Assembly (NCBI GenBank): GCA_000716465.1
Contig: JNWL01000018.1
Coordinates: 62,001-126,000 of the forward strand
Source of the DNA: Streptomyces bikiniensis
Lineage (GTDB): Bacteria > Actinomycetota > Actinomycetes > Streptomycetales > Streptomycetaceae
DNA: 64,000 nucleotides
Direction of reading: 5' to 3'
Shown: positions 6,618 to 17,217 of the stretch, piece by piece
Numbering within the stretch: the stretch's first letter is position 1
Layout of the letters: the number at the start of each line of letters is the position of its first letter
Position numbers and translations under genes: made by a program
The notes under the pieces: model-generated
Told to the model about the DNA's origin: nothing
What the model saw: only the letters and a program-made list of their open reading frames with translations
Database searches by the model: none

Positions 6618-7403
6618 TCAGCGGGCGGTCTCCCGCTCGTACGCCTTGAGGACCTCGTCCGTGGGGCCGTCCATGAGGAGCTGGCCCTTCTCCAGCCAGA
6701 GCACCCGGTCGCAGGTGTCCCGGATGGACTTGTTGCTGTGGCTGACCAGGAAGACCGTGCCGGCCTCCTTGCGCAGCTCGCGGATGCGCTCCTCGGAGCG
6801 GATCTGGAACTTGCGGTCGCCGGTGGCGAGGGCCTCGTCGATGAGGAGGACGTCGTGGTTCTTGGCGGCCGCGATGGCGAAGCGGAGCCGGGCGCCCATG
6901 CCGGAGGAGTACGTGCGCATGGGCAGGCTGATGAAGTCGCCCTTCTCGTTGATGCCGGAGAAGTCGACGATGCCCTCGTAGCGGGAGCGGACCTCCTCGC
7001 GGCTCATGCCCATGGCGAGGCCGCCGAGGATCACGTTGCGCTCGCCGGTGAGGTCGTTCATCAGGGCCGCGTTGACGCCGAGGAGCGAGGGCTGGCCGTC
7101 GGTGTAGACCTTGCCGCTCTCGGTGGGGAGCAGGCCGGCGATGGCGCGCAGCAGCGTGGACTTGCCGGAGCCGTTGGAGCCGATGAGGCCGATGGCCTCG
7201 CCCCGGTAGGCGGTGAAGGTGACGCCGCGGACCGCGTGGACCTTGCGGACGCCCCGGGTGACCTCGGCCTTGCCGCGGCCGACGATGCGGCTGAGGGCCG
7301 CCGTGGCGCTGCCCTTGCCCCCGCCGCCGGCGTTGACCCGGTAGACGATGTGGACCTCGTCGCAGATGACGGTGGGAACGCTGGACCGGTTCGTGTCAGC
7401 CAC
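6618..7403 (-). CDS. ABC exporter ATPase, TagH/Wzt-like
   Basis: A 261-aa ATPase for export of a cell-surface polysaccharide or teichoic-acid-like polymer. Walker A is GSNGSGKST, the signature is YSSGMGARL rather than LSGGQ (as is common in the TagH/Wzt/RfbE branch), and Walker B is VLLIDEAL. It lacks the long C-terminal carbohydrate-binding domain of some Wzt proteins, so export may not need recognition of a capped chain end. Its start overlaps the permease stop by 8 bp. Confidence 0.92.
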   Translation of the reverse strand: MADTNRSSVPTVICDEVHIVYRVNAGGGGKGSATAALSRIVGRGKAEVTRGVRKVHAVRGVTFTAYRGEAIGLIGSNGSGKSTLLRAIAGLLPTESGKVYTDGQPSLLGVNAALMNDLTGERNVILGGLAMGMSREEVRSRYEGIVDFSGINEKGDFISLPMRTYSSGMGARLRFAIAAAKNHDVLLIDEALATGDRKFQIRSEERIRELRKEAGTVFLVSHSNKSIRDTCDRVLWLEKGQLLMDGPTDEVLKAYERETAR

Positions 7404-8325
7404 GGCCGTACCTCTCCTCGGCCTTCCAGAAGTAGACGAAGCCGCCGATGCCGAAGACGAGGGCCCAGCCGAGGGCGGTCATCCAGACGTGGTCCGGCAG
7501 GTTCTCCGCGCCGTAGCCCTCGATGAGGGAGAAGCGGATCAGGTCCATGTAGACCGCCGCCGGGTTGTACATGAGGACGTCGGCGATCCAGGCGGGCTTG
7601 TCGGCGAGCATCGCGGGGATCGAGAACATCACGCCGGAGGCGTACATCCAGGTGCGCATGACGAACGGCATGAGCTGGGCGAGGTCGGGCGTCTTGGCGC
7701 CCATCCTGGCCATGATCATCGCCAGGCCGACGTTGAAGACGAACTGCAGGAACAGCGCCGGGACCAGCAGCAGCCAGCTGAGCGAGGGGTAGCTGCCGAA
7801 GGCCATGACGATCGCCACCAGGACGATCATCGAGAACAGCAACTGCTGGAGTTGCTGGAGCGAGAAGGAGATGGGCAGCGAGGCGCGCGGGAAGTGCAGG
7901 GCCCGGACGAGGCCGAGGTTGCCCGAGATCGCCCGGACGCCGGCCATCACCGAGCTCTGGGTGAAGGTGAACACGAAGATGCCGGTGACCAGGAAGGGGA
8001 TGTAGACCTCTTTGGTCATGCCCCGGCCGGCACCCAGGATGAGGCCGAAGATCAGGTAGTAGACCAGGGCGTTCAGGAGCGGGGTCGCCACCTGCCACAC
8101 CTGGCCCAGCTTCGCCTGGCTGTACTGGGCGGTCAGCTTGGCCGAGGAGAAGGCCAGGATGAAGTGGCGGCGGCTCCACAGCTCCCGGACGTACTCGAAC
8201 AGTCCGGGCCGGGCGCCGCTGACCGAGAGGCCGTACTTCGCGGCGAGGTCGGCCGGAGCCAGGCCCTCGTCGACGGACGGGGGCGCGCTCGTCGCGACCG
8301 CCCCGCCCTGGTGTGTGTCACTCAC
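7396..8325 (-). CDS. ABC exporter permease, TagG/Wzm-like
   Basis: A 309-aa ABC-2 family membrane protein with about six transmembrane segments after a roughly 65-residue cytosolic N-terminus. It pairs with the TagH-like ATPase to move a lipid-linked polymer across the membrane. The GTG start at 8325 lies 50 bp after the glycosyltransferase stop. An 11-bp palindrome just upstream might allow separate control of the exporter pair. Confidence 0.9.
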   Translation of the reverse strand: MSDTHQGGAVATSAPPSVDEGLAPADLAAKYGLSVSGARPGLFEYVRELWSRRHFILAFSSAKLTAQYSQAKLGQVWQVATPLLNALVYYLIFGLILGAGRGMTKEVYIPFLVTGIFVFTFTQSSVMAGVRAISGNLGLVRALHFPRASLPISFSLQQLQQLLFSMIVLVAIVMAFGSYPSLSWLLLVPALFLQFVFNVGLAMIMARMGAKTPDLAQLMPFVMRTWMYASGVMFSIPAMLADKPAWIADVLMYNPAAVYMDLIRFSLIEGYGAENLPDHVWMTALGWALVFGIGGFVYFWKAEERYGRG

Positions 8326-8329
8326 AAGT

Positions 8330-8340
8330 CGAAACTTTCG
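8330..8340. promoter_or_regulatory. 11-bp palindrome before exporter genes
   Basis: CGAAACTTTCG is a perfect palindrome around its central base. It lies 5 bp upstream of the permease GTG in the only real gap of the operon. It could be an operator for an internal promoter; no -10/-35 pair is obvious. Confidence 0.3.
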
Positions 8341-8375
8341 TGTTCAAGATGCGCGGCACGTCGGGTACCACGATG

Positions 8376-9260
8376 TCAGACGACCGGGGGGCGACCCAGC
8401 CGGGTCAGCCGCCATACCGTACGCCACCTCATGGGGCGGCGCGGTCCGCAGGGGGTGGTCCAGCCCGCCCGGAATCCGCCGCACCACGCCTTCAGCGCGG
8501 GGACCGAGGGGCGCCGGGCCAGGGTGAGCAGCAGCCAGACGCCGAGATAGGCCGGCACCAGGGGCGCGGGCAGATTGCGACGGGCCAGCCACACTCGGTT
8601 GCGCGCCACGTTGAAGTGGTAGGAGGCGTGCCGGGAGGGCGCTGTCGTGGGGTGCAGCAGCACCATGTCCGCACGGTAGTCGATCATCCAGTCGGCGTCG
8701 AGCGCCCGCCAGGCGAGGTCGGTCTCCTCGTGCGCGTAGAAGAACTCGTCCGGAAGGCCGCCGACTTCGGCGAAGACCTTGGTGCGGACGGCGTTGGCGC
8801 CGCCGAGGAAGGTGGTCACCCGCGAGGAGCGCATCGGGTCGGAGGCGCGCAGCCGGGGCACGTGCCGGCGCTGGGTGGCACCGGTCTCCGGGTCGGCGAT
8901 CCGGAAGCTGATGATGCCCAGGCGCGGGTCGGCGGTGAAGGCCTGGCGGACCAGCTCGGCGGTGTCGGGGTGGGCGAGCAGGCCGTCGTCGTCGAGGAAG
9001 AGCAGGACGTCGACGTCGGTGCCGCCGGGGCCGAAGGCCTCGATGCCGACGTTCCGGCCGGCGGGGATGCCGACGTTCTCGGGCAGGTCGACGGTGCGGA
9101 CCCCGTCGGGCACCCCGGTGACCGGGGTGCCCTGGCCGACGACGACGACCTCGACCGGGTCGCCCTCCTGCGCGGCGACCGAGTCGAGCAGCGCGCGCAG
9201 GTCGTCGGGGCGGTTGCCCATGGTGATGACGACGGCGCCCACCTTGAGCGGCGTGTTCAC
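8376..9260 (-). CDS. Family 2 glycosyltransferase
   Basis: A 294-aa GT-A fold glycosyltransferase. The N-terminus KVGAVVITMGNRPDDLRAL is the nucleotide-sugar strand, LLFLDDDG holds the DxD-type metal site, and EETDLAWRA is the ED-containing catalytic region. Start GTG 9260 has GAGG 6 nt upstream; GTG 9272, which overlaps the preceding stop (GTGA), is an alternative adding four residues. A hydrophobic stretch near the C-terminus (PAYLGVWLLLTLA) suggests membrane association. It probably adds a sugar to the lipid-linked product made by its neighbours. Confidence 0.88.
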   Translation of the reverse strand: MNTPLKVGAVVITMGNRPDDLRALLDSVAAQEGDPVEVVVVGQGTPVTGVPDGVRTVDLPENVGIPAGRNVGIEAFGPGGTDVDVLLFLDDDGLLAHPDTAELVRQAFTADPRLGIISFRIADPETGATQRRHVPRLRASDPMRSSRVTTFLGGANAVRTKVFAEVGGLPDEFFYAHEETDLAWRALDADWMIDYRADMVLLHPTTAPSRHASYHFNVARNRVWLARRNLPAPLVPAYLGVWLLLTLARRPSVPALKAWCGGFRAGWTTPCGPRRPMRWRTVWRLTRLGRPPVV

Positions 9261-9268
9261 GGCCGGCC

Positions 9269-10048
9269 TCACTTCAGCCTGCTGGAGACCAGGATCGACA
9301 CCAGGTGCAGCAGGGTCTGGAGCAGGGCGATGCCGGCGAGGACGGCGACGCCGAGCCGGGAGAAGAAGAGGTCGCCCCTGATCTGGTCCGCGATCGCGAG
9401 GACCAGGATGAGCAGGGAGGCCTCGATGCCGAGGATCAGCCGGTGGAACTTGAGCGCGGCGGCGGCCCGGCGGGCCAGCGCCATGCCGGAGGAGCGCGGC
9501 TCGGAGGCGGACTCCTTGACGGGCGGGAGGCCGCCCTGGTGGCGGGCGACGCCGACGAGGTCGGTCTCGGCCTTGATCAGGATGGCGCCGAGGGCGGCGA
9601 GGGTGCCCAGGAAGGCCCACAGCCAGTCGATCCGTCCGGTGCCCCACAGGTCGGCGGCGCGCAGGCCGAAGCCGACGAGGACCGCCGCGTCGCACAGGTA
9701 GGCGCCGACCCGGTCCAGGTAGACGCCGCCGAGGGAGAACTGCTTCTTCCAGCGGGCCAGCTCGCCGTCGACGCAGTCGAGCAGCAGGTAGAGCTGGACC
9801 ATCAGCACGCCGAGGACGGCGCCCGGGACGCCCGGCACGAGGAGCGCCGGGGCGGCGAGCACGCCGAAGACGGTCATCAGGTAGGTCAGCTGGTTGGGGG
9901 TGACCCGGGTGTTCGCCAGCTGCCGGGTGATCCGCAGGGAGATCTCCCGCATGTACAGGCGGCCGCCCCAGTGCTCGCCGCTCCGCCGGTCCTTCACGCC
10001 CGGGGGGTGGACGACCGGTCGGAGCTCAGCTACCGATGGCTTGTGCAT
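9269..10048 (-). CDS. CDP-alcohol phosphatidyltransferase-like protein lacking the fourth motif Asp
   Basis: A 259-aa integral membrane protein of the CDP-alcohol phosphotransferase family, with about six membrane segments. The family motif is D-x2-D-G-x2-A-R-x8-G-x3-D-x3-D. Here it reads DCVDGELAR, then GVYLDRVGA, so the last Asp, the proposed catalytic base, is Ala. The other residues are intact. The protein may use a different base, act on an unusual alcohol, or be inactive. Its start overlaps the dehydrogenase gene by 23 bp. Confidence 0.85.
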   Translation of the reverse strand: MHKPSVAELRPVVHPPGVKDRRSGEHWGGRLYMREISLRITRQLANTRVTPNQLTYLMTVFGVLAAPALLVPGVPGAVLGVLMVQLYLLLDCVDGELARWKKQFSLGGVYLDRVGAYLCDAAVLVGFGLRAADLWGTGRIDWLWAFLGTLAALGAILIKAETDLVGVARHQGGLPPVKESASEPRSSGMALARRAAAALKFHRLILGIEASLLILVLAIADQIRGDLFFSRLGVAVLAGIALLQTLLHLVSILVSSRLK

Positions 10049-11087
10049 AGTCGGCGTACGCGTCCCTGATCTCGTCGTCGGACAGGTCGAGGTGTTCGAG
10101 GATGGTGAAGCGGCCCGGTCGCGTCTGCGGGGCGAAGGAGACCGCCCGGACGAACTCGTCCACGGTGAAGCCCATCTCCTGCGGGGTGACGGGCAGGCCG
10201 TGCCGGCGCAGGGTCTCGACGATCAGGCCGGACTCCTCGCGGGCGCCGCGCAGGTGCATGGCGAAGGCCGCTCCGAGGCCGCACTGCTCGCCGTGGCTGG
10301 CGGCGCGGGTGGGGAAGAGCAGGTCGAAGGCGTGGCTGATCTCGTGGCAGGCGCCCGAGGAGGGGCGGCTGTCGCCGCTGATCGACATGGCGATGCCGGA
10401 CATGACCAGGCCCTCGGAGAGGGTGACGAGGAAGTCGTCGTCGCCGACGCCGCCGGGGTGGCGGAGCACGGCCTCTCCGGCGCTGCGGGCCATGGCGGCG
10501 GCGAGACCGTCGACCTTCTCGCCGGTCTCGCGGTGCGAGAGCTCCCAGTCCGCGATGGCGGAGAGGTTGGAGACCGCGTCGCCGATGCCGGAGCGGACGT
10601 AGCGGACCGGGGCGTCCCTGATCACGTCCAGGTCGACGACCAGGGCGATCGGGGTGGGGACGCCGTAGGAGCCGCGCCCGTTGTCGTTGTCCAGGGTGGA
10701 GATCGGGGAGCAGATGCCGTCGTGCGACAGGTTGGTGGCGATGGCCACGAGCGGCAGCCCGACCCGGGCCGCCGCGTACTTGGTCACGTCGATGATCTTG
10801 CCGCCGCCGAGGGCCACCACCGCGTCGTACCGCTTGCCGCGCATGGCGTCGGCGAGCTTGACGGCCTCGTCGATGGTGCCGCCGGCGACCGGGTACCAGT
10901 CGGCTCCGGGCAGCTCGGCGGCGAACCGGTCGCGCAGCTTGAGGCCGGAGCCCCCGCTAATGGCGACCGCGATCTTGCCGTTGCTGGAGATCCGCTGGTC
11001 CGCGAGGAGCGCGGACAGGTCGTCCAGCGCTCCCCCGCGGATGTCGACGACGACCGGCGACGGGATCAGCCGGGTCAGTACTGGCAC
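10026..11087 (-). CDS. Glycerol-1-phosphate dehydrogenase-like (AraM/EgsA-type) oxidoreductase
   Basis: A 353-aa protein of the metal-dependent polyol dehydrogenase family that includes sn-glycerol-1-phosphate dehydrogenase and dehydroquinate-synthase-like enzymes. The NAD-binding loop is ALGGGKIIDV. Likely metal ligands lie in ATNLSHDGICSP, CHEISHAFDLL and SHGEQCGLG. With a nucleotidyltransferase and two CDP-alcohol transferases beside it, the simplest reading is that it makes the polyol phosphate to be activated. The true substrate is not proven. Confidence 0.85.
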   Translation of the reverse strand: MPVLTRLIPSPVVVDIRGGALDDLSALLADQRISSNGKIAVAISGGSGLKLRDRFAAELPGADWYPVAGGTIDEAVKLADAMRGKRYDAVVALGGGKIIDVTKYAAARVGLPLVAIATNLSHDGICSPISTLDNDNGRGSYGVPTPIALVVDLDVIRDAPVRYVRSGIGDAVSNLSAIADWELSHRETGEKVDGLAAAMARSAGEAVLRHPGGVGDDDFLVTLSEGLVMSGIAMSISGDSRPSSGACHEISHAFDLLFPTRAASHGEQCGLGAAFAMHLRGAREESGLIVETLRRHGLPVTPQEMGFTVDEFVRAVSFAPQTRPGRFTILEHLDLSDDEIRDAYADYAQAIGS

Positions 11088-11812
11088 GCGATCTCACGGC
11101 CCTTCGCGAGGTCGTCGTGGTTGTCGATCTCGACCCACTTGACGTCGCCGATGGGGGCCACGTCGACGGTGAAGCCGCGGTTGACCAGCTCCTGGTAGCC
11201 GTCCTCGTAGTAGAGGTCGGGGTCGCGCTCGAAGGTGGCCTTGAGGGCGTCGGCCAGCTCCTCGGCGGCTTCGGCCTCGATCAGGGTGACGCCGATGTAC
11301 TCGCCGGTGGCGGTGGCCGGGTCCATGAGCTTGGTGATGCGCTGGACGCCCTTGCCCTCGGCGGTGATGACCTTCATCTCCTCGTCGGCGAGGCTCTTCA
11401 CCGTGTCGAGGGCGAGGATGATCCTCTGACCGTCGCCGCGGGCGGCGAGCAGGGTCTTCTCGACGGAGACGGGGTGGACGGTGTCGCCGTTGGCGAGGAT
11501 CACGCCGCGCTTGAGGACGTCACGGGCGCACCACAGGGAGTAGGCGTTGTTCCACTCCTCGGCCTTGTCGTTGTCGACGAGGGTGATCGTGAGCCCGTAC
11601 TTCGCCTCCAGGGCCTCCTTGCGGTCGTAGATGGCCTCCTTGCGGTAGCCGACGACGATCGCGACCTCGGTGAGGCCGATCTCGGCGAAGTTCTTCAGGG
11701 TCAGGTCGAGGATCGTGGTGTCCCCGTCGACCGGCACGAGGGCCTTCGGAAGGGTGTCGGTGTAGGGGCGCAGACGCCGCCCGGCACCGGCTGCCAGGAC
11801 GAGACCGATCAT
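11075..11812 (-). CDS. Sugar/polyol-phosphate nucleotidyltransferase (LicC/RmlA-like)
   Basis: A 245-aa nucleotidyltransferase with an intact N-terminal signature: LVLAAGAGRRLRPYT followed by LPKALVPV, plus NAYSLWCARDV and ILANGDTVH. The closest general type is phosphocholine/polyol-phosphate cytidylyltransferase (LicC-like). It likely makes the CDP-activated head group for the CDP-alcohol transferases in the operon. The ATG overlaps the upstream stop (ATGA), and the 3' end overlaps the dehydrogenase start by 13 bp. Confidence 0.88.
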   Translation of the reverse strand: MIGLVLAAGAGRRLRPYTDTLPKALVPVDGDTTILDLTLKNFAEIGLTEVAIVVGYRKEAIYDRKEALEAKYGLTITLVDNDKAEEWNNAYSLWCARDVLKRGVILANGDTVHPVSVEKTLLAARGDGQRIILALDTVKSLADEEMKVITAEGKGVQRITKLMDPATATGEYIGVTLIEAEAAEELADALKATFERDPDLYYEDGYQELVNRGFTVDVAPIGDVKWVEIDNHDDLAKGREIACQY

Positions 11813-13608
11813 GCTGTTTCTCCTTCGTCGTGAACGGCGGGTGCTCCGGCGGAGACCCAGAAGCGGATGGACTCCACGAGCACCACCAGCGCGACGGCGA
11901 CCGCGAGGGCGGTCAGTGCCAGGGTGAAGTCGTCGCCGCGGCCCGCGAGGAGGGCGGCGAGGACGGTCACCAGGAGCGTGCGCCCCTCGTGTCCGCCGGT
12001 GACGCGCACCAGCCAGGCGGGCGGCGCGCCGGTGCCGCCGCGGATGCGGTACACCGTGTCGTAGTGATGGTAGGCGACCGCCGCGACCAGCCCGAACGCC
12101 GCCGGGAGGGCCCCCGGGGAGTCGGAGCGGGCGGCCAGGACGAGGACGGTGGTGTACTCGGCGGCGCGGAAGAGCGGGGGGACGAGCCAGTCGAGGGCGC
12201 CCTTGAGGGGCTGGGCGACGGCGAGCCCGGCGAAGATCGTGTAGCCGACGGCGGCGATCACGGTCTGCCGGTCGCCGAACGGCCACGTGAGGACGGCGAA
12301 CAGCAGGCCGGCCGTCGCGATCGCGGCGAGGACGACGCCGAGGCTCCGGTCGCCGGGGCGGCGGAAGAGCCGGGCGGCGAGCTGGGCCAGCGGTCCGGAG
12401 TCGGTGAGGTCGAAGAGCGCCCGGGCGGCCCGGTCGCTCCTCCTCCCCTTGCGGGTCAGGGAGCGCAGGACGCGGCCGGCGGTGGTGTAGCAGGCGCCGA
12501 AGGCGCAGCCGGCGATCAGGGCCCAGAAGACGATCCGGGGGCCGGTGACGGCGGTGAGGACGGCGATCATCGCCCAGCGCTCGCCGATCGGCAGGATGAT
12601 CATGCGGCGGGCCCAGACGGTCCAGCCGACGCCGTCCAGCCTGCTGGAGAGGGCCAGGCTGGTCTTGGCCGCGGCGCCGGTGCTCTCGGCGTTCGCCTCG
12701 TTGAAGGAGAAGTCCACGACGTGCCGGCAGGTCATCAGGACCATGGCGCCGAGCGCGAGGGCCCAGACGTCGTCGCCGTTCCGGGCGGCGCCGAGGGCGA
12801 GGCCCGCGTAGAAGGCGTACTCCTTGGCGCGGTCGAAGGTGGCGTCGAGCCAGGCGCCCATCGTCGAGTACTTCAGCGCGTAGCGGGCGAGCTGCCCGTC
12901 GGCGCAGTCCAGGACGAAGGAGACGAGGAGGAGGACGCCGGCGGCGACGTAGCCGGCGCGCTCGCCGGTCGCCGCGCAGCCGGCCGCGACCAGGGCGGTG
13001 AGCAGGGAGGCGGTGGTGACCTGGTTGGGGGTCAGTCCGCGGCGCGCGCACCAGCGGGCGATGTGGCGCGAGTACGGGCTGATGAAGAAGGTGGTGAAGA
13101 AGCCGTCGTGCGCCTTCACGGCCGAGCGGAGGCGTACGGCCTCGTCGTCGACGGCCTCGACGGCGGCGCGCGCCGCGTGGCGGGCCTCGGCGTCGGTGGG
13201 CACGGTGGCGACGAGGGTGCCGAGCTGGGGCCGGTGCACGGCGACGCCGCCGGCGTCGAGGGCGTCGGCGAGGGTGCCGGGGAGGTCGTCGGCGGGTGTG
13301 CCGGCGGGCGCGGGGGCGCCGCCCAGGGCGCGGGCCAGCGCGGGGCGGGCCTCGGCCTGCGCGGTGAGCGCGCCGGGGACCGCGGCGGCCGGGAAGCGGG
13401 GGTCGGTGAGGGCGAGGCGCAGCGCGTGCAGATGGCCGACGAACCGGGGGTCGACGAGCGCGACGCGCTCGCCCGCCGGGACGACGGCCAGCAGGGCGCC
13501 GGCCTCCTCGGCGCCGGAGGCGATCCGGACGTCGAAGCCGAGCGACCGCAGATCACCGTCGAGCGAGGATCCGGGTGCCGGCGGGCCGGTGAGGATGGCG
13601 GTCGACAG
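11809..13608 (-). CDS. DUF5941-type CDP-alcohol transferase, probable CTG start
   Basis: A 599-aa protein. About residues 1-125 form a degenerate nucleotidyltransferase-like domain (STAILTGPPAPG start, no Lys-containing signature). This is followed by a CDP-alcohol phosphotransferase domain with a complete motif (DCADGQLAR, then GAWLDATFD) and several further membrane helices. From 13608 the frame is clearly coding, but the only plausible start between the in-frame stop at 13617 and GTG 13239 is CTG 13608, with AAGGAG 9 nt upstream. Starting at GTG 13239 would lose 123 residues. First gene of the envelope operon. Confidence 0.82.
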   Translation of the reverse strand: MSTAILTGPPAPGSSLDGDLRSLGFDVRIASGAEEAGALLAVVPAGERVALVDPRFVGHLHALRLALTDPRFPAAAVPGALTAQAEARPALARALGGAPAPAGTPADDLPGTLADALDAGGVAVHRPQLGTLVATVPTDAEARHAARAAVEAVDDEAVRLRSAVKAHDGFFTTFFISPYSRHIARWCARRGLTPNQVTTASLLTALVAAGCAATGERAGYVAAGVLLLVSFVLDCADGQLARYALKYSTMGAWLDATFDRAKEYAFYAGLALGAARNGDDVWALALGAMVLMTCRHVVDFSFNEANAESTGAAAKTSLALSSRLDGVGWTVWARRMIILPIGERWAMIAVLTAVTGPRIVFWALIAGCAFGACYTTAGRVLRSLTRKGRRSDRAARALFDLTDSGPLAQLAARLFRRPGDRSLGVVLAAIATAGLLFAVLTWPFGDRQTVIAAVGYTIFAGLAVAQPLKGALDWLVPPLFRAAEYTTVLVLAARSDSPGALPAAFGLVAAVAYHHYDTVYRIRGGTGAPPAWLVRVTGGHEGRTLLVTVLAALLAGRGDDFTLALTALAVAVALVVLVESIRFWVSAGAPAVHDEGETA

Positions 13609-14022
13609 ACGAACTCACTCCTTGGAGCTGACGGAGGGCCGGCGGGGCCCATGGCGGCCCCGGGCGCGGCGGTGCGGCCCGGCACCGGGCGGCGACACGT
13701 CGGCTGAGGCTATCCGATGAACAGAAGGACGAGTTCACCGAGGCTTCGCGGGCAGGACTCCCCCGGGCCCGCTCGTGTCCGCCCCGATGCGCTCGGTCCG
13801 TCGCGGATCATGATGGGTGATCATCCGGCCGCCCCACAAACCCCGGTCGCGCGCCTCCTGCCGGGCTGTCTCCGAGCGCTTCTCGCCACACCCCGTCCGG
13901 ACGGCATCACCGCAGGTCAGAGCATATGACAACGGTGTTCAGTACCGTGTTGCGCATACCCCCCACCCGTAGTTGACTTGCGCATCGGGGCACACGGACG
14001 ACACGACCGGGAGGCCAATGTC
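13609..14022. promoter_or_regulatory. Divergent promoter region with ACGGT/ACCGT inverted repeat
   Basis: About 410 bp between the envelope operon (minus) and the cation transporter (plus). ACGGT (13932-13936) and ACCGT (13944-13948) form an inverted repeat with a 7-bp spacer inside a longer imperfect palindrome bounded by CATATG and CGCATA (13923-13958). A TTGACT at 13973-13978 could be a -35 element for the transporter. No gene is seen. Confidence 0.4.
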
Positions 14023-14976
14023 ATGGGGGCTGGACACGATCACGGGCACGGCCATGGGCACGGCCACGTGGGCCCGCCGCCGACGGGTACCGCGGGGGCC
14101 GCGTACCGGAGCCGGTTGCGGATCGCGCTCGGCATCACGCTCTCCGTGATGGTGGTCGAGATCGTCGGCGGCGTCGTCGCGGACTCGCTCGCGCTGATCG
14201 CGGACGCGGCCCACATGGCGACCGACGCGGTCGGCCTCGCGATGGCGCTCCTGGCGATCCACTTCGCCAACCGGCCGCCCTCGGGGAACCGCACCTTCGG
14301 CTACGCGCGGGCCGAGATCCTGGCGGCGCTCGCGAACTGCCTGCTGCTGCTCGGCGTCGGCGGCTACGTGCTCTTCGAGGCGATCCAGCGGTTCATGGAG
14401 CCGGCCGGGACCAAGGGCGGCCTCGCCATCGCGTTCGCGGTGGTCGGCCTGGTGGCGAACGTGATCTCGCTGACGCTGCTCATGCGGGGGCAGAAGGAGA
14501 GCCTCAACGTGCGCGGGGCGTACCTGGAGGTGCTCGCGGACGCCCTGGGCTCGGTCACGGTGATCGTCGCGGCCGGGATCATCCTGCTCACGGGCTGGCA
14601 GTACGCGGACCCGATCGCCTCGCTGGTGATCGGTCTGATGATCGTCCCCCGGACGGTCAAGCTGCTGCGCGAGACCCTGGACGTGCTCCTGGAGGCGGCC
14701 CCCAAGGGCGTCGACATGACGGAGGTACGGGCCCACATACTGGCCCTGCCGGGGGTCGAGGACGTGCACGACCTGCACGCGTGGACGATCACCTCGGGGA
14801 TGCCGGTCCTCTCGGCGCACGTGGTCGTCGACCAGGGGGCCCTGGACTCGGTGGGCCACGAGAAGATGCTGCACGCGCTCCAGGGCTGCCTGGGCTCGCA
14901 CTTCGACGTGGAGCACTGCACCTTCCAGCTGGAGCCGGTCGGCCACGCGGAGCACGAGGCGAAGCTGTGCCTGTAG
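14023..14976 (+). CDS. Cation diffusion facilitator (zinc-type efflux)
   Basis: A 317-aa CDF transporter that exports Zn2+ or a similar divalent metal by proton exchange. It has a His-rich N-terminus (HDHGHGHGHGH), six membrane segments, HMATD in TM2 as the metal site and EVLADALGS in TM5, followed by a cytosolic ferredoxin-like C-terminal domain. ATG 14023 is chosen because GGGAGG lies 8 nt upstream; in-frame TTG 13978 is less likely. It is monocistronic and probably metal-regulated. Confidence 0.93.
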   Translation: MGAGHDHGHGHGHGHVGPPPTGTAGAAYRSRLRIALGITLSVMVVEIVGGVVADSLALIADAAHMATDAVGLAMALLAIHFANRPPSGNRTFGYARAEILAALANCLLLLGVGGYVLFEAIQRFMEPAGTKGGLAIAFAVVGLVANVISLTLLMRGQKESLNVRGAYLEVLADALGSVTVIVAAGIILLTGWQYADPIASLVIGLMIVPRTVKLLRETLDVLLEAAPKGVDMTEVRAHILALPGVEDVHDLHAWTITSGMPVLSAHVVVDQGALDSVGHEKMLHALQGCLGSHFDVEHCTFQLEPVGHAEHEAKLCL

Positions 14977-15036
14977 CGCACCGGAGCGCCTGTTAGTCTT
15001 TTCGTACGAACGCGTGGTGGAGAGGAGCTGGGGTTG

Positions 15037-15108
15037 ATGACCGTCGCGATGGAGGCTGCCCCCTGCGGCAGCGCCCGGTCGTCCCTCAGCCTCCGGGTCT
15101 CCGGCTGA
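15037..15108 (+). CDS. 23-codon leader ORF upstream of the methyltransferase-acetyltransferase gene
   Basis: A short ORF beginning MTVAMEAAPCGSARSS, preceded by GAGGAG 9 nt upstream (a TTG at 15034 is in frame). It ends 70 bp before the TTG start of the downstream fusion gene. Placement and ribosome binding site suggest a leader peptide. It contains one Cys but is not the HIDL-type sulfur leader. No family is recognised. Confidence 0.4.
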   Translation: MTVAMEAAPCGSARSSLSLRVSG

Positions 15109-15178
15109 CCTGATCCCGGTCCTCGCACCGGTACGTCACGTCGTCGGCCGGGGCCCTCTCATCCAAGGGTTTCCCACG

Positions 15179-16444
15179 TTGTCCGACAACGCTCTTCGCG
15201 ATTCCTTCTTCGCCCTGCACCACGGCCTGCCGCGCCAGGGTCCGGGCTCCGACACCACCACCCGTCGGCTCCTCGCGCTCGCGGGACCGCTCCCCGAGCG
15301 TCCGCGCGTGCTCGACCTGGGCTGCGGCCCGGGCCGCTCCGCGCTGCTCCTGGCCGCCGAGGCGGGCGCCGAGGTGACCGCCGTCGACACCCACGAGCCG
15401 TTCCTCGCCGAGCTGCGGGAGTCCGCCGCCGCGCGCGGACTCGACGGCACGGGCCCCGGCGGCGGTTCCGTCCGCGCCCTCCGCGCCGACATGGGCGCCC
15501 TGCCCTTCCCCGACGGTTCCTTCGACCTGGTCTGGGCCGAGAGCTCGGTCTTCGTGCTCGGCTTCGACCGGGCCCTCGCCGCGTGGCGCCGCCTCCTCGC
15601 GCCCGGCGGCACGCTCGTGCTCACCGAGTGCGTGTGGACCACCGGGGAGCCGGGCCCGGCGGCCCGCGCCTTCTGGGAGGAGCACTACCCGCTCCGTACC
15701 GTCACCGGGAACGCGGCGGCGGCGGTCGCGGCCGGCTACCACGTCCTGGGCACCTTCGTCCAGCCGGAGGGCGACTGGGACGAGTACTACGGTCCGCTGG
15801 CCGCGCGCGCCGGTGCGGCCGACACCTCCGTGCCCGGCATGGCCGAGGCGGTCGCCGGGGCGCGCGCCGAGATCGCGCTGCGGCGCGAGCACGGCGCCGA
15901 CTACGGCTACGCCGGTTTCGTCCTCCGGCCCGCCGATCCGCGCTGGCGCACCCGGCCGGAGGCGCCCGGCGAGGAGGCGGAGGTCCGGCGGGTCGAGGCG
16001 GCGGCCTTCGGGTCGGCGGCGGAGGCCGACCTGGTCGACGCGCTCCGGGCGGACCCCGACGCGTGGCTGCCGGGCCTGTCGTACGTGGCCGAGGCCCCGG
16101 ACGGCACGGTCGCGGCGCACGCCCTGCTCACCCGGTGCCACGTGGACGGCGCCCCGGCGGCGGCGCTCGCGCCGGTCGCGGTCGCGCCCGAGCACCAGCG
16201 GACGGGGGCCGGGCAGGCCGTCGTCCGGGCGCTCCTCGACGCGGCCCGGCTGCGGGGCGAGACCCTGGTGCTCGTCCTGGGGCATCCGGAGTACTACCCC
16301 CGGTTCGGGTTCGAACGGGCGTCCGCGTATGGAATCCGGCCAGGTTTCGAGGTTCCGGACGAGGCGATGAGGGCGCTCGTCCTGGACGGCTCCGCCCCCG
16401 TCCCCTCGGGTGCGCTGCGCTATCCCGCGCCTTTCGGGGTGTAG
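15179..16444 (+). CDS. Fused SAM methyltransferase - GNAT acetyltransferase
   Basis: A 421-aa two-domain protein. Residues about 1-210 form a class I methyltransferase with the SAM motif VLDLGCGPG (44-52), then TAVDTHEP and FDLVWAESSVF. Residues about 255-421 form a GNAT N-acetyltransferase ending in the GHPEYYPRFGFERA segment typical of the YhbS-like branch. The start is TTG 15179 with AAGGG upstream. The fusion joins two enzymes usually encoded separately, so both may act on one substrate, which is unknown. Confidence 0.88.
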   Translation: MSDNALRDSFFALHHGLPRQGPGSDTTTRRLLALAGPLPERPRVLDLGCGPGRSALLLAAEAGAEVTAVDTHEPFLAELRESAAARGLDGTGPGGGSVRALRADMGALPFPDGSFDLVWAESSVFVLGFDRALAAWRRLLAPGGTLVLTECVWTTGEPGPAARAFWEEHYPLRTVTGNAAAAVAAGYHVLGTFVQPEGDWDEYYGPLAARAGAADTSVPGMAEAVAGARAEIALRREHGADYGYAGFVLRPADPRWRTRPEAPGEEAEVRRVEAAAFGSAAEADLVDALRADPDAWLPGLSYVAEAPDGTVAAHALLTRCHVDGAPAAALAPVAVAPEHQRTGAGQAVVRALLDAARLRGETLVLVLGHPEYYPRFGFERASAYGIRPGFEVPDEAMRALVLDGSAPVPSGALRYPAPFGV

Positions 16445-16596
16445 TGCCCCCTCTGACCCCTGCCGCTCCCGCCGCCCCGGTCGTGCTCCGGTGCGGTGGG
16501 AGCGGCCGCGTCCGGCCGTCGAAGTACGGACAAGCCGCTTTTGTACGGCAGACTGAGGGGGCCCCACCGGGCCGAGGACCGAAGCGAAGGATGGGT

Positions 16597-17217
16597 ATGC
16601 CGACCACACCAGCCCCCGCGGCTCAGATCTCGCCGGAGATCGCGTCGAACGGCGTCCAGCCGTCCGGAGACCCGGCCCCGATCATGCTCGAACTGGTCGA
16701 CGAGGACGGAAGGACCATCGGCACGGCGGAGAAGCTCGCCGCCCACCAGGCGCCGGGGCAGCTGCACCGCGCCTTCTCCGTCTTCCTCTTCGACGAGTCG
16801 GGCCGGCTGCTCCTCCAGCGGCGGGCCCTCGGCAAGTACCACTCCCCCGGCGTCTGGTCGAACACCTGCTGCGGCCACCCCTACCCGGGCGAGGCGCCGT
16901 TCGCGGCGGCGGCCCGGCGCACCTTCGAGGAGCTGGGCGTCTCGCCCTCGCTGCTCGCGGAGGCCGGCACGGTCCGCTACAACCACCCGGACCCGGCCTC
17001 GGGCCTGGTGGAGCAGGAGTTCAACCACCTCTTCGTCGGCCTGGTGCAGGCCGAGCCGCGCCCGGACCCGGAGGAGATCGAGGACACCGCCTTCGTGACC
17101 CCCGCCGAGCTGGCCGAGCGGCACGCGGCCGCGCCGTTCTCCGCCTGGTTCATGACGGTGCTCGACGCGGCGCGTCCGGCCGTCAGGGAGCTGACGGGTC
17201 CGTCCGGGGGCTGGTGA
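16597..17217 (+). CDS. idi: Isopentenyl-diphosphate delta-isomerase, type I
   Basis: A 206-aa Nudix-fold enzyme interconverting IPP and DMAPP. Key residues: the active-site Cys in WSNTCCGHPYPGE and the Glu in EQEFNHLFVG. It supplies balanced C5 units, which fits the nearby hopanoid and polyprenyl genes although it is not in the same operon. ATG 16597 has GAAGG at sensible spacing; ATG 16591 sits directly against it and is less likely. The 3' end overlaps the convergent ATPase gene by 35 bp. Confidence 0.96.
   Translation: MPTTPAPAAQISPEIASNGVQPSGDPAPIMLELVDEDGRTIGTAEKLAAHQAPGQLHRAFSVFLFDESGRLLLQRRALGKYHSPGVWSNTCCGHPYPGEAPFAAAARRTFEELGVSPSLLAEAGTVRYNHPDPASGLVEQEFNHLFVGLVQAEPRPDPEEIEDTAFVTPAELAERHAAAPFSAWFMTVLDAARPAVRELTGPSGGW

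Follow-up and report, generated by a model that had tools for sequence, protein, structure and literature searches.

A stretch of 64,000 nucleotides from Streptomyces bikiniensis (assembly GCA_000716465.1, contig JNWL01000018.1, positions 62,001 to 126,000), called the window below, carries an operon of seven genes on its minus strand, from position 13608 to position 6618. We propose, with moderate confidence, that its products synthesize an activated glycerol phosphate with the "archaeal" stereochemistry and use it to build an envelope polymer of the teichoic acid type. The genes encode, in this order, a cytidine diphosphate (CDP)-alcohol phosphotransferase with a DUF5941 domain (PT1), a nucleotidyltransferase, a glycerol-1-phosphate-dehydrogenase-like enzyme of the AraM/EgsA type, a second CDP-alcohol-phosphotransferase-like protein (PT2), a GT2 glycosyltransferase, an ABC-2 permease of the TagG/Wzm type, and an ABC ATPase of the TagH type. 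All of the chemistry is predicted; our confidence is higher for the formation of sn-glycerol-1-phosphate (G1P) and CDP-glycerol than for the whole chain, and lower for the role of PT1 and, especially, of PT2. An earlier reading made from the sequence alone had named the same seven genes with mostly overlapping junctions. This was borne out by the coordinates and by Pfam, which backs every gene label; four of the six junctions overlap (by 4, 13, 23, and 8 bases), and at the remaining two the genes are 8 and 50 bases apart.

Conservation was assessed in the best 80 of 515 relatives of the dehydrogenase on genome contigs. All seven genes were found in the same order and on the same strand in 69 of the 80 loci, so the operon withstands the refutation test set in the sequence-only reading, that its genes would not be conserved together. 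Seven loci lacked only GT2, and four were cut by a contig end. The conservation of the operon exceeds chance. Overlap lengths are also nearly fixed among the relatives: 4 bases between the DUF5941 and nucleotidyltransferase genes in all 68 loci judged, 13 bases between the nucleotidyltransferase and dehydrogenase genes in 77 of 78, and 23 bases between the dehydrogenase and PT2 genes in 75 of 79. The dehydrogenase was found in every one of the 121 genomes sampled from the genus, so the earlier statement that G1P chemistry is rare in bacteria is misleading here. It was matched in 100 of 394 class genomes (E up to 1e-30), and DUF5941 was matched in 19 of 396 phylum genomes, 12 from the same genus and 7 from outside it. 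One record, named Microtetraspora glauca (L011), has a Streptomyces-form operon whose dehydrogenase is 95% identical, and its place on the tree is within Streptomyces; it is perhaps mislabelled. At another locus (L050:7263-9059), the nucleotidyltransferase frame is free of stops through to the end of the dehydrogenase, which could reflect a frameshift, a sequencing error, or a fusion.

Two samples covered more distant loci. The first consisted of eight stretches around the seven non-genus DUF5941 genomes (L110 to L117). The complete seven-gene set was found with its order kept in L114. PT1, the nucleotidyltransferase, the dehydrogenase, PT2, and GT2 were kept in L110, L111, L113, and L115, with a different order in L113. 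L112 and L117 have PT1 with DUF5941 alone, the remaining operon genes being missing, and L116 has no dehydrogenase within the stretch. Neighboring genes matched Glyphos_transf (L113 and, just above cut-off, L116), Bac_transf (L116), LytR_cpsA_psr (L115), and Caps_synth (L113). Sulfotransferase genes lie near the cassette in L113 and L114, which come from two distant actinobacteria, suggesting a sulfated envelope product there.

The second sample comprised 20 hand-picked stretches from the class, 17 from outside Streptomyces and 3 from within it. The nucleotidyltransferase adjoins the dehydrogenase in 19 of them, and 11 also have PT2 and PT1 with DUF5941. The nucleotidyltransferase-dehydrogenase pair is the kernel of the cassette. 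An LCP gene was found in 10 of these stretches and a TagGH-like pair in 9, although LCP and ABC genes are common anyway and these counts are not controlled for a background rate. In L171, the kernel pair is accompanied by a TagGH-like pair, a TagF-like gene matched along its full length, and two genes with weak Glyphos_transf matches. A different transferase, with the fourth aspartate (D4) of the phosphotransferase motif, adjoins the pair in L164 and L167.

The dehydrogenase-nucleotidyltransferase pair and the wall-teichoic-acid locus

The dehydrogenase gene occupies positions 10026 to 11087 (Pfam Fe-ADH_2, 102 bits, cut-off 28). Among NCBIfam models, its protein scored 236.5 bits with glycerol-1-phosphate dehydrogenase (G1PDH) and 77.8 bits with glycerol dehydrogenase, both under cut-off. 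The top PDB chains were the G1PDH structures 4rgq and 4rfl, and an Asp, two His, and the S-x-DG loop align with them; we take the Asp, His, and His to be the metal ligands. The nucleotidyltransferase gene lies at 11075 to 11812 (Pfam NTP_transferase, 53.3 bits). The best solved relatives of its product are 1jyk, a cytidine triphosphate (CTP):phosphocholine cytidylyltransferase, and 4jd0, titled an inositol-1-phosphate CTP transferase, and an N-x-YS motif is common to all three in the alignments. With the IPCT-DIPPS model NF041135, the nucleotidyltransferase, PT1, and PT2 scored only 50-52 bits, below the cut-off of 580. The nucleotidyltransferase is a putative CTP:glycerol-1-phosphate cytidylyltransferase.

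A second dehydrogenase was found in 12 genomes of the genus, 9 of the 121 sampled and 3 of 40 same-genus class matches, and 11 of these second copies were read (G847 was left out). All 11 adjoin rplU-rpmA-obg, 7 of them with RNase E visible on the opposite flank, and 8 of the 11 have both the nucleotidyltransferase and the dehydrogenase. Near-complete TagF-like matches were found at the second-copy loci L174 and L179. The ribosomal proteins L21 and L27 anchor the TagF/TarIJ locus of Streptomyces, and in S. griseus the wall teichoic acid is of the ribitol-phosphate kind and includes a glycerol-phosphate unit (PMC13274773). A 515-residue IspD-domain protein lies near obg, away from rplU, in four of the six loci of that kind that were read; obg was out of view in the other two. 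Judged from its size and place, this protein is probably TarIJ. A strong second IspD match of the TarIJ-like kind was found in at least 32 of the 121 genus genomes and in none of the 12 two-copy genomes, whose second IspD matches had E-values of 1.6e-8 or weaker. The contrast between two-copy genomes and other genomes of the genus is suggestive; taken within the genus sample (0 of 9 against at least 32 of 121), it is not significant on the matches listed.

The window's own genome has a TagF/TarF-like protein at G000:C12, near obg-rpmA-rplU-RNase E, which scored 237.7 bits with the TarF model (cut-off 550). TagD, the glycerol-3-phosphate cytidylyltransferase, had no match in this genome and none above cut-off in any of the 121 genus genomes. 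A candidate TarIJ in the own genome was rejected, as the second IspD match (C7) is GlmU and the remaining matches are IspD and one weak match at C34. Since the genome has a TagF-like protein and no detectable TagD or TarIJ, the nucleotidyltransferase-dehydrogenase pair is the best candidate for its source of CDP-glycerol.

Another locus of the same genome (L118, G000:C2:264600-284500, about 10075-16761) encodes a GDSL hydrolase together with a PT1-like transferase and an approximately 1,500-residue protein with the domains GT2-GT2-Glyphos_transf. The transferase and the GT2-GT2-Glyphos_transf genes resemble SCO2589 and SCO2590. SCO2589 and SCO2590 have been named as teichoic acid genes (PMC3937824). 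Two TagF-like capsule polymerases accepted both glycerol-1-phosphate and glycerol-3-phosphate in vitro (PMC8262930).

Transferases, glycosyltransferase, and exporter

PT1 (positions 11809 to 13608; Pfam CDP-OH_P_transf and DUF5941) begins with CTG after AAGGAG, with no ATG, GTG, or TTG at that position. The CTG start is common to all 70 loci with an aligned start, and 64 of the 70 have no other in-frame start upstream. The protein consists of a degenerate cytidylyltransferase-like domain (residues ~1-153), a CDP-alcohol phosphotransferase domain with a complete motif (~165-390), and the DUF5941 membrane domain (392-599). All eight class I residues, D1xxD2G1xxAR...G2xxxD3xxxD4, are present; the motif in the window is DCADGQLARYALKYSTMGAWLDATFD. 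The motif was matched in 79 of the 80 loci (one was unmatched by the pattern) and in 14 PT1 copies outside Streptomycetaceae. A rule that PT1 is always intact was tried and dropped, since the motif is degenerate in the class loci L159, L161, L162, and L178. At these loci, the degenerate frames stand beside the nucleotidyltransferase-dehydrogenase pair, and DUF5941 and a PT2 with His at D4 are retained. As these are four of the 11 class loci that have DUF5941, catalysis by PT1 is not a universal feature.

AF2299 was the nearest solved structure by Foldseek for both PT1 and PT2. With VIA-align, CPT1 and CEPT1 ranked first for PT1 with DUF5941, at 11-14% identity. PIP-synthase and DIPP-synthase models were matched by both transferases of the operon as well, in every case under the cut-off. 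A PT1-type transferase was rejected as proof of lipid synthesis, as the PT1-like gene at C2 adjoins a TagF-like gene. No literature was found on DUF5941.

PT2 (positions 9269 to 10048; Pfam CDP-OH_P_transf) lacks one of the eight class I residues: D4 is Ala in the window, and across the 80 loci this position is Ala in 69 and His in 11. It is His in all 15 non-streptomycete copies, which were found with a motif leaving D4 free, and Ala or His in Streptomycetaceae. No locus read combines a degenerate PT1 with an Ala-type PT2. More speculatively, PT2 could be a new subclass in which the catalytic Asp has become His, and PT1 and PT2 could be paired such that one or other active site is retained throughout. 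In Streptomyces, the dehydrogenase tree has rows with His- and Ala-type PT2 interleaved, a hint that strains have exchanged PT2 alleles. A group test of His-type PT2 compared labelled rows only and, given this interleaving, a single origin is not claimed.

The GT2 gene (positions 8376 to 9260; Pfam Glycos_transf_2, 37.4 bits) is missing from 7 of 79 judgeable loci, and those rows form one Streptomyces group on the dehydrogenase tree (support 86/92). Since the loci without GT2 are one clade that keeps the remaining genes, GT2 seems to be dispensable for the core product. The last two genes encode the permease (7396 to 8325; Pfam ABC2_membrane, 42.8 bits) and the ATPase (6618 to 7403; Pfam ABC_tran). 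The best NCBIfam model for the ATPase was TagH (169.6 bits, below the cut-off of 320); for the permease, the nearest was a galactan exporter, also below cut-off. The own genome holds a paralogue of the exporter at G000:C15, with 61-62% identity for the permease and 68% for the ATPase, adjoining a divergent TetR gene. As this is also the arrangement of tagR-tagGH in S. roseosporus, the operon pair is probably a second teichoic-acid-type exporter. A promoter and terminator scan gave no signal beyond chance, although Streptomyces promoters are poorly covered by such a scan, and a tRNA scan found no tRNA genes.

Proposed pathway and alternatives

In the pathway that we favor, the dehydrogenase would convert dihydroxyacetone phosphate to G1P, as expected from its family, and the nucleotidyltransferase would combine G1P with CTP to give CDP-glycerol. 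With CDP-glycerol as donor, PT1 would then place glycerol phosphate on a lipid-linked acceptor that is bound by the CPT1-like helices of DUF5941, as its model and motif suggest. PT2 might work with PT1 through its altered active site and could be the active enzyme where the PT1 motif is lost. GT2 would add a dispensable sugar, and the TagGH-type pair would export the product. The same CDP-glycerol would probably serve the TagF-type protein encoded at the separate wall-teichoic-acid locus as well, in which case the nucleotidyltransferase-dehydrogenase pair would be the glycerol counterpart of TarIJ. What the operon itself yields could be a complete polymer or just the glycerol-phosphate linkage unit found in wall teichoic acids of Streptomyces. 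Because relatives of the operon have TagF-like, Bac_transf, and LCP neighbors (counted with no background control) and the pair recurs at the wall-teichoic-acid locus, a teichoic-acid-type polymer is favored.

The sequence-only reading had supposed that a polyol phosphate is made, activated, transferred to a membrane carrier, and exported. This logic fits the evidence, and the choice it left between polymer and lipid is narrowed to a teichoic-acid-type polymer by the same neighbors and locus. Where it set the product apart from standard teichoic acids it may have gone too far, since the ordinary machinery is probably supplied by the pair as well. The missing catalytic Asp of PT2 and the likeness of DUF5941 to known enzymes had escaped that reading. 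A broader proposal is less likely than not to hold in full: that in Streptomyces and several other actinobacterial families the glycerol phosphate of the wall polymer is G1P, supplied as CDP-glycerol by an AraM-cytidylyltransferase pair, that the membrane-embedded PT1 and PT2 replace priming of the TagB/TagF type, and that PT1 carries in DUF5941 a CPT1-like domain for lipid acceptors while PT2 is a new His subclass.

Several observations weigh against a teichoic-acid pathway from G1P. The dehydrogenase misses the cut-off of the NCBIfam G1PDH model (PRK00843; 236.5 of 413 bits) and is therefore labelled G1PDH-like. Further nucleotidyltransferases are encoded in the window's genome, and CDP-glycerol could have another source. 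Three of the 11 second copies comprise the dehydrogenase with no nucleotidyltransferase, and just 7 of the 11 stretches show TagF-like matches, which are mostly partial. Weak TagD-like matches occur in 82 of the 121 genus genomes (best 70.4 of 165.4 bits), with none in the window's genome. The seven genes include neither a Glyphos_transf polymerase of the TagB/TagF type nor an initiating phosphoglycosyltransferase; the TagF-like proteins are at G000:C12 and C2. The degenerate PT1 motif of L159, L161, L162, and L178 also counts here, as does the weak Foldseek score of CPT1/CEPT1 for PT1 (E 0.0045 or worse; DUF5941 was not folded alone). Finally, PT2 lacks the "absolutely conserved" catalytic Asp, and an Asp-to-Asn change at that position nearly abolished a related enzyme (PMC4634129).

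The alternative that survives best, though still unlikely, is a membrane lipid route in which PT1 moves the group of G1P-derived CDP-glycerol onto diacylglycerol or a glycolipid, giving phosphatidylglycerol in a Kennedy-type manner or a lipoteichoic-acid-like anchor. The enzymes with which PT1 and its DUF5941 align best take diacylglycerol as acceptor. In phosphatidylglycerol and lipoteichoic acid, the phosphate is on sn-1 of the outer glycerol, and by this chemistry CDP-(sn-1)-glycerol would give it directly. The hopanoid operon noted in the sequence-only reading is a real neighbor in Streptomyces: squalene/phytoene-synthase genes lie in the window at 6103-5192 and 5771-4245 and an amine oxidase gene at 5131-2672, and the first squalene/phytoene-synthase gene is 0.3-3.5 kb (median ~0.5 kb) downstream of the operon in 75 of the 80 loci, the other 5 ending at a contig edge. 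However, hopanoid genes do not accompany the cassette outside Streptomyces in the loci read. Hopanoid queries against the eight distant loci gave one match only, an unconvincing 31.6 bits inside the PT1 frame of L112, and against the 20 class stretches they matched only L176, from Streptomyces, and none of the 17 non-Streptomyces loci. A general hopanoid link was thus rejected, the cassette being present in other actinobacterial families without convincing matches. The lipid route also sits poorly with a TagGH-type exporter inside the operon, with LCP, TagF-like, and Bac_transf genes beside its relatives, with the recurrence of the pair at the wall-teichoic-acid locus, and with loss of the PT1 motif in four class loci that retain the pair.

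A different polyol is also improbable, slightly more so than the lipid route. The dehydrogenase could use another phosphorylated ketone, as its score under the G1PDH cut-off would allow, or the nucleotidyltransferase could activate inositol phosphate made elsewhere, in keeping with its match to 4jd0 and the sub-cut-off matches of PT1 and PT2 to PIP-synthase and DIPP-synthase models. Opposed to this are a G1PDH score three times that for glycerol dehydrogenase, the aligned catalytic residues, and the adjacency of the dehydrogenase and nucleotidyltransferase across families. An inositol system was rejected, since inositol-phosphate synthase is absent from the seven genes and every inositol model is under cut-off.

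It is very unlikely that G1P feeds a GGGPS-type synthase of an archaeal-type ether lipid. Streptomyces has been listed as having all three archaeal lipid genes and possibly archaeal-like lipids (PMC6431249), but the seven genes include no GGGPS-type prenyltransferase (the rest of the window's genome was not searched for GGGPS), neither the cytidylyltransferase next to the dehydrogenase nor the teichoic-acid-type exporter fits such a lipid, and the second copies are at the wall locus. Least probable of all is a soluble phosphodiester solute resembling di-inositol phosphate or diglycerol phosphate, which would agree with the nearest solved transferases, AF2299 and IPCT-DIPPS, not processing lipids (PMC4634129) but not with the TagGH-type exporter, GT2, the CPT1-like extension, or the LCP and TagF-like neighbors in relatives.

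Comparison with known systems

The neighborhood of the operon matches the Streptomyces synteny clusters 14531, 14532, and 14538, which are syntenic with tagG, tagH, araM, and crtB and have been linked to teichoic acid biosynthesis (PMC13118837). Duplicates of cluster 14531, a sugar-phosphate nucleotidyltransferase, occur in 76 of 929 genomes (PMC13118837), which fits the second nucleotidyltransferase copies seen here. The accessible part of that report gives no mechanism, G1P logic, loss of D4, role for DUF5941, or comparison with TarIJ. No literature was found proposing G1P-derived CDP-glycerol for teichoic acids, in a search in which most listings were unopened and most subscription journals were out of reach.

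PcrB is reportedly the partner of AraM in B. subtilis. AraM of that species, a bacterial G1PDH, serves an archaea-type ether lipid (PMC13400652, PMC6431249). The operon's dehydrogenase belongs to the same G1P dehydrogenase family, and here its neighbor is a nucleotidyltransferase. In the debate on the lipid divide, bacterial G1P dehydrogenase genes have been read as possible archaeal-lipid genes, with Streptomyces named (PMC6431249). If the favored pathway is correct, part of that reading changes, as the actinobacterial enzyme would have a different job, and the origin of CDP-glycerol in Streptomyces without TagD would be explained. DUF5941 and a transferase subclass without the supposed catalytic base would gain functions, and the stereochemistry of Streptomyces wall glycerol phosphate would be directly testable.

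In S. roseosporus, a mutant deleted for tagG of tagR-tagGH showed defects in sporulation and plasmolysis and was rescued by tagG from B. subtilis (PMC10269677). The paralogous pair at C15 shares this layout with its divergent TetR gene, a likeness of layout and not of sequence. AF2299, IPCT-DIPPS, and PIP synthase are the nearest solved folds and resemble PT1 in having a cytidylyltransferase-like domain fused to the transferase; the donor of AF2299 is CDP-glycerol (PMC4634129). They differ from the operon's proteins in that PT1 is extended by DUF5941, its N-domain is degenerate, and PT2 lacks the fourth Asp. Compared with the choline/ethanolamine phosphotransferases CPT1 and CEPT1, PT1 is bacterial, its donor is probably CDP-glycerol, and its acceptor need not be diacylglycerol.

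The operon resembles wall teichoic acid synthesis (TagD/TarIJ, TagB, TagF, TagGH) in an exporter of probable TagGH type and in a dehydrogenase-cytidylyltransferase pair that would feed a CDP-polyol, and TagF-like and LCP genes lie near its relatives, with second copies at the wall-teichoic-acid locus. It differs in that G1P would be used instead of glycerol-3- or ribitol-5-phosphate and in having CDP-alcohol phosphotransferases in place of TagB and TagF, in a genome without TagD.

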